IMG/VR virus record: IMGVR_UViG_3300044826_000111
Location: 1-39,898 of that record
Direction: 5' to 3' (one strand)
Length of the DNA: 39,898 bases
DNA from: a virus
The notes under the pieces are model-generated. The model was given only the letters and a program-made list of their open reading frames with translations, had not been told where the DNA came from and did not search any database. Of the stretch, positions 128 through 39,898 are shown piece after piece (position 1 is the first letter of the stretch; each line of letters begins with the position of its first letter). Position numbers and translations under genes: made by a program.

Positions 128-162
128 CCAAATCTACCCTTACGTTCTCTAATTGTTGCCAA
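1..162 (-). CDS. Integrase-like DNA-binding protein, N-terminal part (continues at 39771-39397)
   Basis: This is the first third of a gene cut by the contig ends. It starts at TTG 162, with an AAGGAG Shine-Dalgarno 8 nt upstream (171-176), and overlaps the helicase stop by 14 nt. The opening MATIRERKGRFGVKISR, followed by QTFSTLETAKLWA, is typical of the small three-stranded-sheet arm-binding domain at the start of phage tyrosine recombinases. Joined to the right-hand end, the protein is 178 residues, far shorter than a 350-400 residue integrase. It should bind DNA, but I see no catalytic domain (see the 39397-39898 entry). Confidence 0.75.
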   Translation of the reverse strand, partial: MATIRERKGRFGVKISRNRITICQTFSTLETAKLWAAYKEDLLDEMEAFNPPKQ

Positions 163-2398: not shown

Positions 2399-2803
2399 AT
2401 GACTGAAGAACTTGGTCCGGTCAGAGACCAGATGGCACAAGATTGCTGGGATATTGCATATGGTATTGCAAAAGACCGAAGCCATGATCCTAAGCCTTTT
2501 TACATCCTATACTCAGCTAAGGTAGACCCTAAGCTATCAGGAGCTGATGCGTGGGGTAAACGTGTAGCTGGTGGCATACGACAGTCATTTAGGCTCTCAT
2601 ATGACAGACCGCCCTTTGTTCTAGGCATGTTAGTGTGGTACGTAGAAGGTCCTAAGGGTTTATTCCAATTTATCCCCGAGCTTTCTAGTCCACCAGATAT
2701 CCCTATTGATCCATCGTTACTATCAAGAGATAGTTGCGATACATCACTAGGTTTAGCTGAAAAAGCAAAAGAAATGAGTAAGTCAATGCCGCTAATTAGT
2801 TAG
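2399..2803 (+). CDS. Hypothetical 134-residue protein upstream of the scaffold
   Basis: A globular-looking protein with aromatic and proline-rich stretches (SYDRPPFVLGMLVWYVEG near residues 76-93) and a Ser-rich, hydrophilic tail. I do not recognise the family. Its position immediately ahead of scaffold and capsid makes a head-assembly role plausible. A 59-nt gap to the scaffold follows, with a short GAGT/ACTC hairpin around 2840-2853. Confidence 0.65.
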   Translation: MTEELGPVRDQMAQDCWDIAYGIAKDRSHDPKPFYILYSAKVDPKLSGADAWGKRVAGGIRQSFRLSYDRPPFVLGMLVWYVEGPKGLFQFIPELSSPPDIPIDPSLLSRDSCDTSLGLAEKAKEMSKSMPLIS

Positions 2804-2862
2804 TGGCGCATAGCAAACTATTAACGGGCGTAAACCGAGTGTCGCCGACTCTTTAGGAAACT

Positions 2863-3621
2863 ATGACAATATACGATCAAGACTACATGTCAGAACTAGA
2901 CATGCAGCAACAGAATATGCAGGGCGTAACAGATCCCGCCGCCGGGGGTCAGGTAGCTACTCCTCAAGAAGCCGAAGTTCCTAAAGAAGAAGTTGTTCAG
3001 GACGTTGAACCTGTGCAGCCAGATTCTGATAAAGAGTATAACTTCCGAGCATTACGAGAGGAACTAGCACAAATTAAAGAAGATCGGGATCGCCTACGTG
3101 GTGACTTCGAAGATCTTCGCCGCAATCAAGTGCAACGTCAACCTGAGCCGCCTCGTAAGCGAGCAATAGATGATATCAACTCTGATGATCTCATCACAGG
3201 GGCACAATTAAAAGCAGCCATGGCAGAGCGTGAAGCTGAGTACCAACTCATGCTTGGAGAGCTTCAGGTAAAAGCGCAGAACCCCGACTACGACGAGGTA
3301 ACAGCTAAGTATGGCGTACCTCTTATTGAAAAAGAACCTGATCTTGCGCAAGGATTTTTAGCTTCCAATAACAAAGCTGCTTACCTATATAAGATAGGCA
3401 AGCTAGCGATGAATGCGGAACGAAGAGCAGAACCTGTTATGCAAGCTCCGCCACAGCAGTCTTCACAAACTGCTCAGCGTATAGTAGAAAACTCTAGAAA
3501 GCCCGGAACCTTATCCAACTCAGTTGGCGGCTCTGGTAACCTATCTAAAGCTGACTATTATGCAACGATGTCGGAAGCAGAATTCCAGGCCTTCATGAAT
3601 AAAAATCTGGAGCAGATCTAA
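2863..3621 (+). CDS. Scaffolding protein
   Basis: 252 residues, acidic at the N-terminus, then a long charged helix with coiled-coil character (about residues 58-95, rich in Glu, Arg and Leu), an unstructured Pro/Gln/Ser linker, and a C-terminal helix with EAEFQAFMNKNLEQI. This composition, and its place directly before the major capsid gene, are typical of phage capsid scaffolds, which direct coat assembly inside the procapsid and then leave. There is an AGGAAA ribosome-binding site. The assignment rests on composition and synteny, not on a conserved motif. Confidence 0.8.
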   Translation: MTIYDQDYMSELDMQQQNMQGVTDPAAGGQVATPQEAEVPKEEVVQDVEPVQPDSDKEYNFRALREELAQIKEDRDRLRGDFEDLRRNQVQRQPEPPRKRAIDDINSDDLITGAQLKAAMAEREAEYQLMLGELQVKAQNPDYDEVTAKYGVPLIEKEPDLAQGFLASNNKAAYLYKIGKLAMNAERRAEPVMQAPPQQSSQTAQRIVENSRKPGTLSNSVGGSGNLSKADYYATMSEAEFQAFMNKNLEQI

Positions 3622-24247: not shown

Positions 24248-24264
24248 GAAAACATCGGAGGCAT

Positions 24265-24570
24265 ATGAATCTACGCGAATGGTTAGACGAGGAAATAATG
24301 GAAATTCGTGAGTTTGCAAAGAGGATAGGCGTTAGCAGATTGACGATATACAACTGGCTGTATAAGTCTACGAAACCATTACGAATAACGCAGTTGATAG
24401 TACAAAGGGAAACAGACGGTAAAGTAACACTTGAATCATGGGAGACATTAAATGACAAAAAACAATCTGATAAGCGTTTACGAGGCACAAAAGATAATGA
24501 ATTGCGGAGCACACAACGTGTGGTTGTTGATAAGAAGATTAAGCCTAAAAGCAGTCAAAAGAGGCGGTAA
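24265..24570 (+). CDS. Cro-like helix-turn-helix regulator
   Basis: 101 residues from ATG 24265, with GGAGG at 24257-24261. Residues 13-38 form the helix-turn-helix: REFAKRIGVSRLTIYNWLYK, followed by RITQLIVQRETDGKVTLES, the usual ending of Cro/CI-type domains. The remaining tail is very basic, of low complexity, and read in another frame over the next gene for 119 nt. It lies directly beside a GTATAA operator, and I infer that it binds the repeats at 14711, 23561, 24228, 27391 and 29476. No separate CI-type repressor with a cleavage domain is visible. Confidence 0.82.
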   Translation: MNLREWLDEEIMEIREFAKRIGVSRLTIYNWLYKSTKPLRITQLIVQRETDGKVTLESWETLNDKKQSDKRLRGTKDNELRSTQRVVVDKKIKPKSSQKRR

Positions 24571-34536: not shown

Positions 34537-36675
34537 ATGGCAAGTCCTATGTCCGATTACTCAGATGATGCTCGACAGTTCCTCAAGGAATATAAGTCCA
34601 AATCTAAATCTCAGTCATTAGAAGATCATCAGGACATTATCAAAGAGTTCGGCGAGAACTACGAGCGAGCCTACCAGCAACTCAACACCTACTATGCCGA
34701 AGCCTACCGCGACCTTAGTTACTCCCTAGGTAACCAATGGTCACTTGAAGAGATAGCATACCTTAACAACCAGAGACGCTCTAGTTTTACCTACAACATG
34801 GTTCGACGCATGGTTAACCTTGTAGAGGGTATACAGCGTGATGGCCGCCTTGCTACCAAGATAAGCCCTATTGAAGACTCATCCGAGATGACTGCCGAGC
34901 TCATGACGGATGTAATGCAATACATTATGACCTCAGGATCAGGTTATGACAAATTATCCCAGGCGTTTCGTGATAGTCTTGTTACGGGTATTTCGTGGAT
35001 ATGCCCATACCTTGACTATAGGGGGGACCCTGTCAATGGCGATGTTAAGTTTAACATCACAAATTGGAATGACAGCATATGGGATCCTTTCTTCTTCGAA
35101 AAAGACATGTCAGACTGCTCATTCTGGGCACGACGTAAGTATCTAGACCGTACTACAGTGATTTCATTGCTCCCCGACCAAGAAGATCGCATTAATGCAT
35201 TGCCTTATGGCAATAGAGATGATAAATTCACCTACATGTCCTTCGCCAGAAACTTCGGCATGCAAAAACTCCTCAACTATACCGAATACTGGCGCAGAAA
35301 GTGGGAAATAAGAGATGTACTTGTCGATATGGACTCTGGAGAGACTACAGAGTGGAAAGGACCAAAAGACAGACTCCAATTCATTCAAGCTCTACATCCT
35401 AATCTCAAAATTATTCGCAAGCCTGTGCGCACTGTTGAGCTGGGCATTATCGTAGAGGGAGAGCTGCTTTATTATGGAAAAGATCCTTACGGTCTTGACG
35501 ACTACCCTTGCGTTCCTATTTTCGGCGGTGATTATTCCCCTACTTATGATCTTTATACTTGGAAGCTCCAAGGAATTGTCCGATATATTCGCGATCCTCA
35601 GACTGAGCTTAATAAGCGTATTTCTCGCCATGTGGACCTATTGGATTCGCAACTAAACTCAGGGTGGATCGCAAAGACAGGCGCTGTAACCAATACATCA
35701 TCTTTATTCAAGTCGGGCAATGGACAGGTGGTGTTCATCCGTCCCGATGCGAATATGGAAGATGTACAGCGAATTATGCCGCCAGATATCCCACAAGGGC
35801 AAATGGCATTAACGGAGATGTTCAATGAGATTATCCCGAATATATTGGGTATTAATCCCGAAATGCTTGGGATGCCCGAGAATGAGAAGGTTGAAACCGC
35901 TGCCATCCTCGCCAAAATGCGACAATCTGCAGGTCTTATCTCCCTTCGCGGTGTATTTGATAACCTTGCTGAAAGTCAAAAAATACTCGGCCAGAAGGTT
36001 ATGAAGATGATGCAGGTGAACTATTCACCTGAGAAAATCAAGCTCATCACTAAGAAAGACGTAACTCCTGAATTTTATTCCAAGACCTTCTCACGTTATG
36101 ACGTGACAGTAGAAGAAGGCCTATTGACCAACACCCAGAAACAGACTGAGTTCATGCAGCTATTCACTATGAAGCAAGCTGGTATGCCAATACCTGATAG
36201 CCTACTAGTCAAGAAATCAAGCCTACACTGCCGTCAAGAGCTTGATGACATTCTTGATGCTCAAGCTAAACAAGAACAAGAAGCTATACAGCGTCAAATG
36301 GAAATGCAAGATCAGCAGATGGCAATCACTACACAGGGCATAGAAGCTAAAGCCAAGGCTGACCAAAGCCTTGCTATGGAGCGCATGAACAAGATTCACC
36401 TTGACGAGGCTATATCAGCTGAGCGTATACAGAAGGCACAAGAAGAGTCTTCCGCCCAGATGCTTAACTTCGCTAAGATGCTTAAAGAGATAGATGGACT
36501 AGACTTAGATCATATGCTACGTAAAGTGGAAGCATTACGTAACCTTACGGAGCTTGAGCTTGCTCACAAGCAGCATGATCATGAGGTAACAAAGCATCAG
36601 GATGATATGGCACTGCAGCATCGTCAGCTTGATGTTCAACAATATCAGGCTCAGGCAGCTCCGCCCAATGCATAA
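34537..36675 (+). CDS. Portal protein (P22-like)
   Basis: 712 residues. N-terminal YRDLSYSLGNQWSLEEIAYL and NMVRRMVNLVEGIQRDGR, then DPFFFEKDMSDCSFWARRKY, YGKDPYGLDDYPCVPIFGG, and a QTELNKRISRHVDLLDSQLN clip region match the P22 gp1-type portal family. The last 130 residues are a Gln/Met/Lys-rich helical barrel. Twelve copies form the ring through which terminase packages DNA and the tail attaches. The 3' end overlaps an antisense gene by 131 nt. Confidence 0.9.
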   Translation: MASPMSDYSDDARQFLKEYKSKSKSQSLEDHQDIIKEFGENYERAYQQLNTYYAEAYRDLSYSLGNQWSLEEIAYLNNQRRSSFTYNMVRRMVNLVEGIQRDGRLATKISPIEDSSEMTAELMTDVMQYIMTSGSGYDKLSQAFRDSLVTGISWICPYLDYRGDPVNGDVKFNITNWNDSIWDPFFFEKDMSDCSFWARRKYLDRTTVISLLPDQEDRINALPYGNRDDKFTYMSFARNFGMQKLLNYTEYWRRKWEIRDVLVDMDSGETTEWKGPKDRLQFIQALHPNLKIIRKPVRTVELGIIVEGELLYYGKDPYGLDDYPCVPIFGGDYSPTYDLYTWKLQGIVRYIRDPQTELNKRISRHVDLLDSQLNSGWIAKTGAVTNTSSLFKSGNGQVVFIRPDANMEDVQRIMPPDIPQGQMALTEMFNEIIPNILGINPEMLGMPENEKVETAAILAKMRQSAGLISLRGVFDNLAESQKILGQKVMKMMQVNYSPEKIKLITKKDVTPEFYSKTFSRYDVTVEEGLLTNTQKQTEFMQLFTMKQAGMPIPDSLLVKKSSLHCRQELDDILDAQAKQEQEAIQRQMEMQDQQMAITTQGIEAKAKADQSLAMERMNKIHLDEAISAERIQKAQEESSAQMLNFAKMLKEIDGLDLDHMLRKVEALRNLTELELAHKQHDHEVTKHQDDMALQHRQLDVQQYQAQAAPPNA

Positions 36676-36892
36676 TCGCAGTACTCCTTGAAAAGTGCAT
36701 AGGATGCTTACCTGGTTCTTGAATATGGTGGAAATACAGGGTGTTAACACCCTCTGTATTTTTATGATGATATAATGCTTTAACTTCATCACCACTTGCT
36801 GTTTTGACAAGGTAAGTCTTGCCTTGTTCAGGATTTTTTTCTCCAAATCTAGGATATCCCCACCATTCATTCCAATCATTCCATTCAGTCAT
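36545..36892 (-). CDS. DUF551-like protein reading into the portal gene
   Basis: 115 residues. It starts MTEWNDWNEWWGYPRFGE, contains the family ending IMHWAELPEP near residue 75, then continues with about 40 extra His/Ala/Pro-rich residues. These are read antisense to the portal 3' end. It also contains the portal terminator (36732-36763) within its coding part. The tail probably arose when a stop was lost and the frame ran on. Confidence 0.68.
   Translation of the reverse strand: MTEWNDWNEWWGYPRFGEKNPEQGKTYLVKTASGDEVKALYHHKNTEGVNTLYFHHIQEPGKHPMHFSRSTAIMHWAELPEPDIVEHQADDAAVPYHPDALLPHDHAACEQAQAP
36732..36763 (+). terminator. Intrinsic terminator of the portal operon
   Basis: AAATACA-GGGTG (36732-36743), loop TTAA, then CACCC-TC-TGTATTT (36748-36761) and further T residues. 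Stem of 12 pairs with one two-base bulge. It stops rightward transcripts 57 nt after the portal stop. On the minus strand no U-run follows, so it acts in one direction only. Confidence 0.82.
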
Positions 36893-37088
36893 GAGGCACC
36901 TCGGGTAACATCATCCAGTGACTAGGATGAGCATAGTGATGTGAAGTAAAGCACTCGGAAAACCATATCGACTCACCAACAACAGTCCTTACATACCTAC
37001 CCTTGAGTATGCCGTTTTCTTTGCTATAGATGAGGATATCGGTGTCATCAGGGGGTAGTGCGTCTCTTATGCTAATCCATTCAGTCAT
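36885..37088 (-). CDS. DUF551-like protein (67 residues)
   Basis: MTEWISIRDALPPDDTDILI at the start and PSHWMMLPEVPHD at the end; the classic DUF551 frame W(I)S-x-R/K-D-x-LP ... HW-x-x-LPE. It overlaps both neighbours by 8 nt. DUF551 is common in phages and of unknown function. Confidence 0.75.
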   Translation of the reverse strand: MTEWISIRDALPPDDTDILIYSKENGILKGRYVRTVVGESIWFSECFTSHHYAHPSHWMMLPEVPHD

Positions 37089-37293
37089 GAGGCACCTCAG
37101 GTAACTCCGCCCAGTGCGTAACTCTACCTATGCCTTTACCATCCCAGTAAAGGCGTTCATATTTCTCAATAGGATCATCTTTATATGAAGGTTTGCCATA
37201 GGTAATCACATCATAATATCCAAATTCAATAGGTAAACGATCTTTAACAGATACCCATTTTTTAGGAGGACTATCTTTTAGAGACATCATTAA
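37081..37293 (-). CDS. DUF551-like protein (70 residues)
   Basis: From ATG 37293 (MMSLKDSPPKKWVSVKDRLP) to VTHWAELPEVPHD at the end, the last residues being identical to the end of the next gene. The frame opens further back to 37353, but that part overlaps the gene before and has no ribosome-binding site. One of a local family. Confidence 0.7.
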   Translation of the reverse strand, partial: LMMSLKDSPPKKWVSVKDRLPIEFGYYDVITYGKPSYKDDPIEKYERLYWDGKGIGRVTHWAELPEVPHD

Positions 37294-37471
37294 ATCCACA
37301 TGTGCAAGTTTGATAAGTTCTATAATGTTTATGAAACTCTTGAGCATTCTCAAGTAATTTTGCTTGACTACACGTCATATCTATGCAATTAAGTATAATT
37401 GTTTTATCACCTTTTTTCATTATAGGAATATTAGGCCAAAATCTAAACTTACATTTACCTAATTCAGTCAT
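37271..37471 (-). CDS. Hypothetical 66-residue protein
   Basis: MTELGKCKFRFWPNIPIMKK, then NCIDMTCSQAKLLENAQEF and a terminal TCTCGFNDVSKR. Five cysteines could bind metal. It overlaps the DUF551 gene downstream by 23 nt. Function unknown. Confidence 0.6.
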   Translation of the reverse strand: MTELGKCKFRFWPNIPIMKKGDKTIILNCIDMTCSQAKLLENAQEFHKHYRTYQTCTCGFNDVSKR

Positions 37472-37686
37472 ACATTATATTCTCTATTAGACTTTAATCC
37501 ACAAAATGGGCAGAAATTGACTTCACAGGACGCCCAATCATCAATATAATCCTCCAAGCCATTCTGCCCTTGATACCAAATACTCATGATCATAGGGCCA
37601 TTTCCAGAACATTCGTTTGTTCCCGTTCCGCAGCAGTAATTAATTTTTTCGGTTTTAAATTCTCTTTTGCAACAATGTTCAGTCAT
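37468..37686 (-). CDS. Zinc-ribbon protein (72 residues)
   Basis: Nine cysteines: MTEHCCKREF, INYCCGTGTNEC and CEVNFCPFCGLK. The VNFCPFCGxK ending matches the rightward gene at 31486, so a copy of this family lies on each strand. It overlaps its neighbour by 4 nt. Confidence 0.65.
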   Translation of the reverse strand: MTEHCCKREFKTEKINYCCGTGTNECSGNGPMIMSIWYQGQNGLEDYIDDWASCEVNFCPFCGLKSNREYNV

Positions 37687-37706
37687 AACTCAACATTCTT
37701 CTTAGG

Positions 37707-37961
37707 TTAGGCCGGACATTGATAACATTTTCTTACAACATTCTTCAGTCTGTAATATTCTTCAAAATCAATACTTAAATCATGTGAATATGCCAACATG
37801 GTAATGTCAAATATACTTAAGCCATATCGATCTTGTAGCAGAACTGCGTCAAAACCTGATAACCGGGTTTTTGGCTGGTACTTTTTCCATACATCGCTAA
37901 GTAATGTACCGCCTCGTAAGATGATTTTAAGAGCTTCAGCTTCATTTATTCGATATTTCAT
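37707..37961 (-). CDS. Hypothetical 84-residue protein
   Basis: MKYRINEAEALKIILRGGTL, DVWKKYQPKTRLSGFDAVLL and a C-terminal KNVVRKCYQCPA. The RGGTL...W motif is helical; the Cys pair at the end is isolated. It overlaps the phosphoesterase gene by 4 nt. No family recognised. Confidence 0.62.
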   Translation of the reverse strand: MKYRINEAEALKIILRGGTLLSDVWKKYQPKTRLSGFDAVLLQDRYGLSIFDITMLAYSHDLSIDFEEYYRLKNVVRKCYQCPA

Positions 37962-38608
37962 AATTCAATCCTCACACCATCGTTAACCTTTACATAATCA
38001 CCATCTAGGATAGATGCATTGACAAATTGTCTTCTGTAGCCATCCATAATTTGACCGCCAGCTTGGCCTCCCTCTTCATGGATATGTCCCCATACACACA
38101 ACTTCAAGTTCTTATATTCAGTAGAACTCACAACATTTCTAAGACTAGAACTACCAACATGTGGATCTTCATCTTCTTTAGCACGACTAATTTTATCAAA
38201 CATACATTTCGGAGGCATGTGTGTAATTAATATATTAGTGTCCTTAGGTATCATGGCCCACTTCTTGGCAAGGCTATCATCACTATGCTTAGTAAAAGCC
38301 TTGCATCGAGGATTAATGCCGTGAAACCAAGCAGTCCACGGACTTCCCCATATCTTTAGGCCTTCAAACTCACAACCTGAATCCTCAAGATACGTGCAGT
38401 TCTTAAACTCAAATCCCTTAATAAACGTGTCATGGTTACCAGCAATAACCACCTTAAAACGATAATCCTGATTGCCAATCCACTCATCAAAGTAAATATA
38501 AGCCTCACGTGTAGAATGCCCAACAAGATCCCCAGCAACAATAAGCATGTCGCCGCCTTGTAGCGTGGGAAATTCTCCGTGAAGGTCACTTATGCAGTCA
38601 ATTTTCAT
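37958..38608 (-). CDS. Calcineurin-like metallophosphoesterase
   Basis: 216 residues. Metal-binding motifs in order: ISDLHGEF (Asp 8, His 10), VAGDLVG (Asp 27), VIAGNHDTF (Asn 58, His 59), ITHMPPK and VWGHIHEEGG. It belongs to the two-metal phosphoesterase superfamily, which hydrolyses phosphomonoesters or cyclic nucleotides. In a phage it could remove nucleotide alarm signals or act in nucleotide or DNA end processing; the substrate is unknown. Confidence 0.9.
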   Translation of the reverse strand: MKIDCISDLHGEFPTLQGGDMLIVAGDLVGHSTREAYIYFDEWIGNQDYRFKVVIAGNHDTFIKGFEFKNCTYLEDSGCEFEGLKIWGSPWTAWFHGINPRCKAFTKHSDDSLAKKWAMIPKDTNILITHMPPKCMFDKISRAKEDEDPHVGSSSLRNVVSSTEYKNLKLCVWGHIHEEGGQAGGQIMDGYRRQFVNASILDGDYVKVNDGVRIEL

Positions 38609-38789
38609 CTTTCACCTTAGGCAGTCTCTTAATTATTTTATCCAATATAATCTCAAGAGATTGGTTTCTATCAATCTGTGTCCTCATAGCCCACAATTCC
38701 TCAATAGACATATCTGTAACATCAATCAATTCTGTTTTAGTCGAAAACCAACCTTGCTTGACTATTTTCCTTATTAATATTCTATGCAT
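38598..38789 (-). CDS. Hypothetical 63-residue protein
   Basis: MHRILIRKIVKQGWFSTKTE, then a helix MSIEELWAMRTQIDRNQSLE and a basic end. It overlaps the phosphoesterase start by 11 nt, suggesting the two are translated together. No family recognised. Confidence 0.6.
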   Translation of the reverse strand: MHRILIRKIVKQGWFSTKTELIDVTDMSIEELWAMRTQIDRNQSLEIILDKIIKRLPKVKDEN

Positions 38790-38792
38790 ACA

Positions 38793-39044
38793 TTACTTAT
38801 CCTGAGGTAAAGTAGGCAAATACATCCAATGAGTGATACATTCAATATCCATGTAACTAAAAGCATCACCACAATAAGGCCCAGTACCATCATTACCCCA
38901 GAACATCCATTTACCATTAGGATATAATTCTGACTTAGGATAACGCATAGCAAAGCATATAGGGCTATCGCTTTGATAATCGCAACATACCATTACCCAG
39001 TCATATTCGGGTAATTCATCCTTAACGCTAATCCATTCAGTCAT
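38793..39044 (-). CDS. DUF551 protein (83 residues)
   Basis: From ATG 39044, 6 nt after AAGGAG: MTEWISVKDELPEYDWVMVC, a central KWMFWGNDG, and CITHWMYLPTLPQ at the end. This is the most typical DUF551 member here. The frame opens further back to 39143, but the ribosome-binding site decides the start. It overlaps the next gene by 8 nt. Confidence 0.78.
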   Translation of the reverse strand: MTEWISVKDELPEYDWVMVCCDYQSDSPICFAMRYPKSELYPNGKWMFWGNDGTGPYCGDAFSYMDIECITHWMYLPTLPQDK

Positions 39045-39285
39045 CATCTTCTCCTTTCCAGAACCATTTTCTATATTTAGTGAGTAAATGCCTTGGTTTT
39101 TTAGGAATTGGAGTCCAGTGAGTAACGTGCCATTCTTCTCCAAGATCAGTCAATGTATCTCCATTTTGAACCATCCATGTACCTTGGTCTAAAAACCCAA
39201 CGGAAAGATCCAAATGATTAGTTAGGATTACAACCTGCTGATCTTCTTTAGGCAGTTCTCTCTTAATATTCTTCCATTCACTCAT
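39037..39285 (-). CDS. DUF551-like protein (82 residues)
   Basis: MSEWKNIKRELPKEDQQVVI at the start, GTWMVQNGD in the middle, HVTHWTPIPKKP at residue 60, then a basic-aromatic tail (KYRKWFWKGEDDD). It has the family frame with an added tail. Its start overlaps the stop of the membrane peptide upstream (ATGA). Confidence 0.73.
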   Translation of the reverse strand: MSEWKNIKRELPKEDQQVVILTNHLDLSVGFLDQGTWMVQNGDTLTDLGEEWHVTHWTPIPKKPRHLLTKYRKWFWKGEDDD

Positions 39286-39395
39286 AAATAATACTCAATA
39301 AATCTAAGAATTACGGCTAATATAGATAAACCCATTGCCCACAATGACCAATTCCTGAGAGATCTGAGTTCTCTTTCTAAATCATCATTATTCAT
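39282..39395 (-). CDS. 37-residue membrane peptide
   Basis: MNNDDLERELRSLRNWSLWA, then a hydrophobic GLSILAVILRFIEYYL. AAGGAAAT stands upstream. A charged start and one helix suggest an inner-membrane peptide. It begins 2 nt after the integrase-like gene and overlaps the DUF551 gene. Confidence 0.62.
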   Translation of the reverse strand: MNNDDLERELRSLRNWSLWAMGLSILAVILRFIEYYL

Positions 39396-39396
39396 A

Positions 39397-39898
39397 TTAT
39401 TTCCTTAGGTTTTTAGATAATTCATTAACGCATTTTAGTGCAATATTATCAATGTCAACATTGTTCTCATTTAAATTTGAGTATACGGTGCTTAGTCTTT
39501 TTAGCTTATTTATAATGGTAATTGGCGATGGCATTGAATATTTCCCAGATTTTTCATTTCCTACACTTCCGCCAAATTTAACCTGAATTTTAGACATTTT
39601 CTTACAGTGTGCAATTAAATCATCATAAGAAATTTCATGCATATATTTTTGTAGAAATGCGTTAAAATCTATCTTTAAATTCTTAATGTCAGTCACGCTT
39701 CGAGTGCTTAAACCATCTTTAATAGCATTGTCTATTTTGAAGTTTATTGCGTCTTCAAGAGTGATCATTTCCTGTTTAGGAGGATTAAATGCTTCCATTT
39801 CATCAAGGAGATCCTCTTTGTACGCTGCCCATAATTTTGCTGTTTCAAGTGTAGAAAAGGTTTGACATATTGTTATTCTATTTCTAGAAATCTTAACA
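39397..39898 (-). CDS. Integrase-like protein, arm-binding and core-binding domains only
   Basis: The part of the gene that starts at 162, shown here up to the contig end. After the arm-binding domain comes EMITLEDAINFKIDNAIKDG, TDIKNLKIDFNAFLQKYMHE and NKLKRLSTVYSNLNENNVDI, the all-helical core-binding domain of tyrosine recombinases. The chain stops (NELSKNLRK) where the catalytic domain with its R-H-x-x-R-H-Y residues should start. 178 residues in all. It may be a decayed integrase or a DNA-binding relic put to other use. Confidence 0.72.
   Translation of the reverse strand, partial: VKISRNRITICQTFSTLETAKLWAAYKEDLLDEMEAFNPPKQEMITLEDAINFKIDNAIKDGLSTRSVTDIKNLKIDFNAFLQKYMHEISYDDLIAHCKKMSKIQVKFGGSVGNEKSGKYSMPSPITIINKLKRLSTVYSNLNENNVDIDNIALKCVNELSKNLRK
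39772..39898. repeat. Terminal direct repeat, right copy
   Basis: Identical to 1-127. Together they show that the contig closes into a circle; one copy should be removed before counting genes. Confidence 0.95.

Follow-up and report, generated by a model that had tools for sequence, protein, structure and literature searches.

Tyrosine recombinases with an arm-binding domain are the integrases of phages and ICEs, such as lambda Int and Tn1549 Int, and they have been classified as a group (PMC8138268). In lambda Int, the N-terminal domain has high affinity for arm-type sites, and the core site is bound less tightly by the core-binding and catalytic domains (PMC4880445). The presence of an integrase is used to mark a phage as temperate, and integrase fragments are read as decay. 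We analyzed IMG/VR virus record IMGVR_UViG_3300044826_000111 over its whole length of 39,898 nucleotides (hereafter the window), a circular phage contig that encodes a 178-residue protein with an N-terminal arm-binding (AP2-like) domain and a likely core-binding (SAM-like) domain, ending where a catalytic domain would begin. This protein is a variant of the known integrase architecture with stand-alone relatives. It resembles the arm-binding-domain integrases in carrying the two domains in the same order and at the same spacing, such that lambda Int aligns over both, but differs from them in lacking the catalytic domain and therefore cannot recombine DNA. A domain of related fold is also found in the T5 homing endonuclease F-TflVI, where the AP2 domain is C-terminal and follows an HNH nuclease, whereas the window protein shows no HNH motif, either as a Pfam HNH match or by eye. 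The account we favor, to which we give roughly an even chance, is that the gene is complete and encodes a stand-alone, catalytically empty pair of arm-binding and core-binding domains (AB-CB), acquired together with the adjoining helicase gene and serving in DNA binding.

The gene lies on the minus strand across the circular join of the contig, whose two ends share the same 127 bases (bases 1-127 repeat 39772-39898), and reads from a TTG start at 162 to a stop at 39397 (Table 1). The initial annotation had proposed a joined frame with an intact start that is coupled to the helicase, and each part of this description holds: the 127-base repeat and the open frame through it establish the joined frame as real, a good ribosome-binding site (AAGGAG) precedes the TTG by approximately 9 nt, and the helicase stop overlaps the AB-CB start by 14 nt. 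The motif of the arm domain continues unbroken through the end overlap, which argues against an assembly fault. On the other side, a small hydrophobic frame begins one base past the AB-CB stop at a TAATATG junction, with its ribosome-binding site inside the final AB-CB codons, and an ATGA junction links this small frame to a DUF551 gene. These two junctions, together with the overlap with the helicase, place the AB-CB gene in a tight operon. No tRNA genes and no matches to Rfam families were found in the window.

Table 1. Positions of the AB-CB gene and of the features adjoining it in the window
Feature	Position	Strand	Remark
AB-CB gene (178 aa), main part, from the end of codon 12 to codon 178 and the stop	39397..39898	-	
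AB-CB gene, first codons, from the TTG start	128..162	-	
Superfamily 2 (ResIII / DEAD / Helicase_C) helicase gene, 457 aa	149..1522	-	
Small open frame, ~37 aa, with one hydrophobic stretch	39282..39395	-	read directly from sequence
Rest of the variable accessory cassette between portal and helicase: DUF551 paralogues, PDC-S10-type metallophosphoesterase	36548..39285	-	

The absence of a catalytic block elsewhere in the window, as originally noted, was borne out by a six-frame search that gave no match to Phage_integrase (PF00589), a family that the same search found in 14 of 14 control genomes; the serine resolvase family (PF00239) was likewise without a match in all six frames. As PF00589 is missing from every frame, no frameshift can restore a catalytic domain, and no relic of one lies behind the AB-CB stop or in another frame, the next frames being those of the small hydrophobic protein and DUF551. 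These observations bear on the possibility that the gene is a truncated integrase in the course of being lost, one that arrived horizontally, shed its 3' half and either has yet to acquire a function or no longer has one. We regard this as a doubtful explanation, in that the protein ends in frame at a domain boundary, at the point where we take lambda Int to pass into its catalytic domain, and the gene keeps a ribosome-binding site of its own, supplies that of the next frame from its last codons and leaves no catalytic remnant downstream. What speaks for such a truncation is that the gene has no close relatives in the collections searched, that it is AT-rich, foreign-looking and confined to one of 11 contigs, and that accessory cassettes contain much passing material.

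The arm-binding domain emerged from profile comparisons, as ordinary sequence searches with the 178-residue protein (Pfam, PHROGs, NCBIfam, PADLOC, PDB, phages, plasmids and viral contigs) returned nothing usable. The lone lead from direct searches was a very weak tblastn match to an Acinetobacter integrase (E = 6), which served as the seed for collecting 15 full-length phage-type integrases, and a profile was built from their N-terminal halves. Against this profile the whole protein scored 34.2 bits, compared to 11.6 for the best of 999 shuffles, and hhalign aligned residues 1-111 to it with 95.8% probability. A second, slightly larger integrase profile, used to locate the signal along the protein, gave 23.7 bits for residues 1-50 alone, against 9.3 for the best of 999 shuffles. 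Single-sequence AlphaFold predicted a confident three-strand sheet and helix (beta-beta-beta-alpha) over residues 1-48, with pLDDT of 83-91 across residues 1-40 and nothing reliable further on. The first 20 residues include seven basic and one acidic residue, as expected for a DNA-binding sheet. We conclude that the arm-binding domain is confirmed at the level of sequence. Descent from an integrase is not proven by the first 50 residues alone, since AP2 domains of this kind are also present in phage HNH endonucleases; one such protein (T5 hegF) reached 17 bits with the integrase profile. The sole match of the protein in bacterial genomes, to what by its look is the flagellar protein FlgB, was dismissed as a chance match.

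The residues beyond the arm domain likely form a core-binding (SAM-like) domain, an assignment drawn from predicted structure. Residues 51-178 alone scored 2.4 bits, a value reached by 28 of 999 shuffles and hence not significant. We modeled the protein with AlphaFold from an alignment of seven rows, comprising the query, five integrases and one arm-only phage protein; its identity to the aligned integrases is approximately 17-23%. The resulting model (mean pLDDT 76) contains helices at residues 59-73, 77-89, 103-115, 137-154 and 161-177, and its top 30 structural neighbors are all core-binding domains of integrases or related recombinases. The best match to a solved structure was 2kob (Z 11.4, rmsd 2.3, 97 residues). 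The core-binding domain of Tn1549 Int matched with Z 10.3, and lambda Int (1z1g) aligned over both domains (model residues 1-170 to Int 14-172, 147 residues, Z 9.6, rmsd 4.2). Helical matches under Z of approximately 13 can reflect common arrangements. Foldseek against the PDB gave no match at E <= 0.001 for either the single-sequence or the aligned model. Because the sequence signal is not significant and the alignment contained integrase rows, which may have drawn the model toward a core-binding fold, the core-binding half is the less secure of the two. The two-domain identity put forward in the initial annotation is thus upheld, for the arm domain by profile and single-sequence fold and for the core-binding domain by structure only, with integrase core-binding domains as the nearest structural neighbors of the joined protein (Z up to 11.4).

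Comparison with related phages informs the origin of the gene. Ten close sister contigs have portal proteins 66-88% identical to that of the window, and those that were compared are largely colinear with it. All ten, several of which are fragments, lack the AB-CB gene, the helicase and any integrase, so that full-length relatives, which the initial annotation had looked to sister phages to provide, do not occur in them. Six sisters (G001, G002, G005, G006, G008 and G010) retain the region from the portal to the next conserved gene, and in them it holds different accessory genes, mostly on the minus strand. The AB-CB gene has a GC content of 31% (25% at third codon positions, GC3) and the helicase one of 36%, compared to 40.6% for the phage. 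The absence from the sisters and the AT-rich composition argue for gain of a cassette and not for loss of an ancestral integrase, and point to joint acquisition of the AB-CB gene and the helicase as part of an AT-rich accessory cassette.

These comparisons also address the first of the two original suggestions, that the phage lost lysogeny and that the protein is what remains of the lineage's own integrase after deletion of its catalytic domain. Genes for Erf, an exonuclease, RusA and an O-like replication protein are present in this integrase-less phage, as is one for a repressor-like HTH protein (24259-24567, +; phrog_35, E 7e-8); this recombination and replication set, lambdoid-like in part, and the HTH repressor leave some room for a temperate ancestry. 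Three of 29 more distant records (28 that have terminases 37-51% identical to that of the window and one portal relative) contain integrases, which could be counted toward an integrase-bearing past, but these are of other types than the window protein. With ten sisters that carry neither an integrase nor the AB-CB gene or any relic, no catalytic remnant in the window, and a gene of foreign composition in a variable, AT-rich cassette, we judge a remnant of lost lysogeny to be very improbable.

The cassette itself contains further genes of interest. A metallophosphoesterase gene (37958-38608, -) matches the PADLOC phage-defense candidate PDC-S10 (189 bits, E 1.4e-56) and is possibly a defense gene in the same accessory cassette. 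Several DUF551 or DUF551-like genes lie near one another on the minus strand (37084-37353, 38796-39086, 39040-39285 and probably 36548-36892). Repeated DNA surrounds the starts of some DUF551 genes, and the sisters carry other sets at the same place.

As for sites at which the protein could act, the phage was found to contain no array of arm-type repeats and no cluster of repeated sites, a search that the initial annotation had suggested for arm-type repeats. A short element, ATGACTGAAT, occurs in three copies (at 36883, 37079 and 37462), which were considered as arm sites and rejected; those at 36883 and 37079 coincide with the starts of DUF551-like genes. The best dif-like site in the phage agrees with E. 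coli dif at 18 of 28 positions, a value equal to that of shuffled sequences, though the dif site of the host may differ from that of E. coli. The suggestion that the protein helps a host recombinase, specifically one of Xer type that would integrate an integrase-less temperate phage, thus found no support. Phages that lack an integrase and use XerCD are known, which speaks for this proposal, but the dif comparison, weak as it is with the E. coli site, goes against it, and we consider it the most improbable of the explanations weighed here.

A role closer to home would be that of a regulator or architectural protein in phage replication and recombination, working with the helicase, the Erf annealing protein, the exonuclease and RusA. 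The 14-nt overlap with the helicase gene and the presence of Erf, exonuclease, RusA and O-like genes fit such a role; sisters with similar genomes do without both the AB-CB gene and the helicase, and a repeated site was not found in the phage. We hold this explanation to be unlikely. The remaining suggestion of the initial annotation, that the protein binds DNA and competes for sites, conflicts with none of our observations. As a stand-alone AB-CB protein, the favored account, it would recognize specific DNA sites by means of its basic arm-binding sheet, the core-binding domain would provide either a second DNA contact or a protein interface, and the protein would thereby occupy the integrase-type sites of another element, such as a prophage or satellite. 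Alternatively, it would act as a regulator by binding the DNA of the phage itself. The lack of a repeated-site cluster in the phage argues mildly against arm sites of its own and makes an outside target a slightly better guess; we therefore place competition with a foreign integrase slightly ahead of regulation of the phage's own DNA.

Four leads say that stand-alone pieces of integrases recur. The best match in BFVD to our first, low-confidence model was A0A6J5P5D5, an uncharacterized 170-residue protein from an uncultured Caudovirales phage, at 34% identity over 168 columns (E 1.8e-5). Its length is close to the 178 residues of the window protein, with which it aligns nearly end to end, and identity along the whole length amounts to a signal in the sequences despite the poor model; a stand-alone protein of near-equal size in another phage also tells against truncation of an integrase in this window. 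An alignment of the window protein with seven integrases was too diverse for scanning viral contigs. A scan of these contigs with a degenerate motif mostly returned unrelated frames or full-length integrases; its arm-domain proteins comprised eight with a catalytic domain and two that stand alone. It added an 85-residue protein (L113, 1197-1451, +) to a 101-residue protein from a phage with a related terminase (L061, 1528-1830, +), both arm-only and without a catalytic domain. They are 48% identical to each other and constitute an unnamed small phage family; like the window protein they have a stand-alone domain of arm-binding type, but they lack the core-binding domain. The N-terminus of a full-length integrase matches PHROGs 9176 (139 aa), 10426 (193 aa) and 38348 (45 aa), short phage families that resemble the N-terminal part of integrases, as the window protein does, and a loose first look at the window against 9176 and 10426 gave no match at E <= 10. 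Among open-licence papers, we found none on integrases without a catalytic domain.

A broader conjecture, which we think will probably not hold, is that integrase-less phages carry stand-alone grips, either arm and core or arm only, that sit on attachment sites belonging to resident prophages or satellites and keep a foreign integrase from assembling its complex, acting as dominant-negative anti-satellite or anti-prophage factors. If cleanly ended, grip-only proteins do recur in integrase-less phages, these domains would also act as independent DNA-binding proteins, and grip-only genes must then not be taken as a sign of lysogeny; should they block the recombination of another element, they would constitute a simple weapon between phages and satellites.

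Two minor observations concern genomes encountered in this work. Near the arm-only gene of L113, a frame (2746-3366, +) resembles by eye a serine recombinase of resolvase type. Burkholderia phage BgVeeders33 (OK665841.1; L044) encodes a full-length tyrosine integrase from position 187 onwards, 336 residues from the matched start, that is unannotated in the deposited record.
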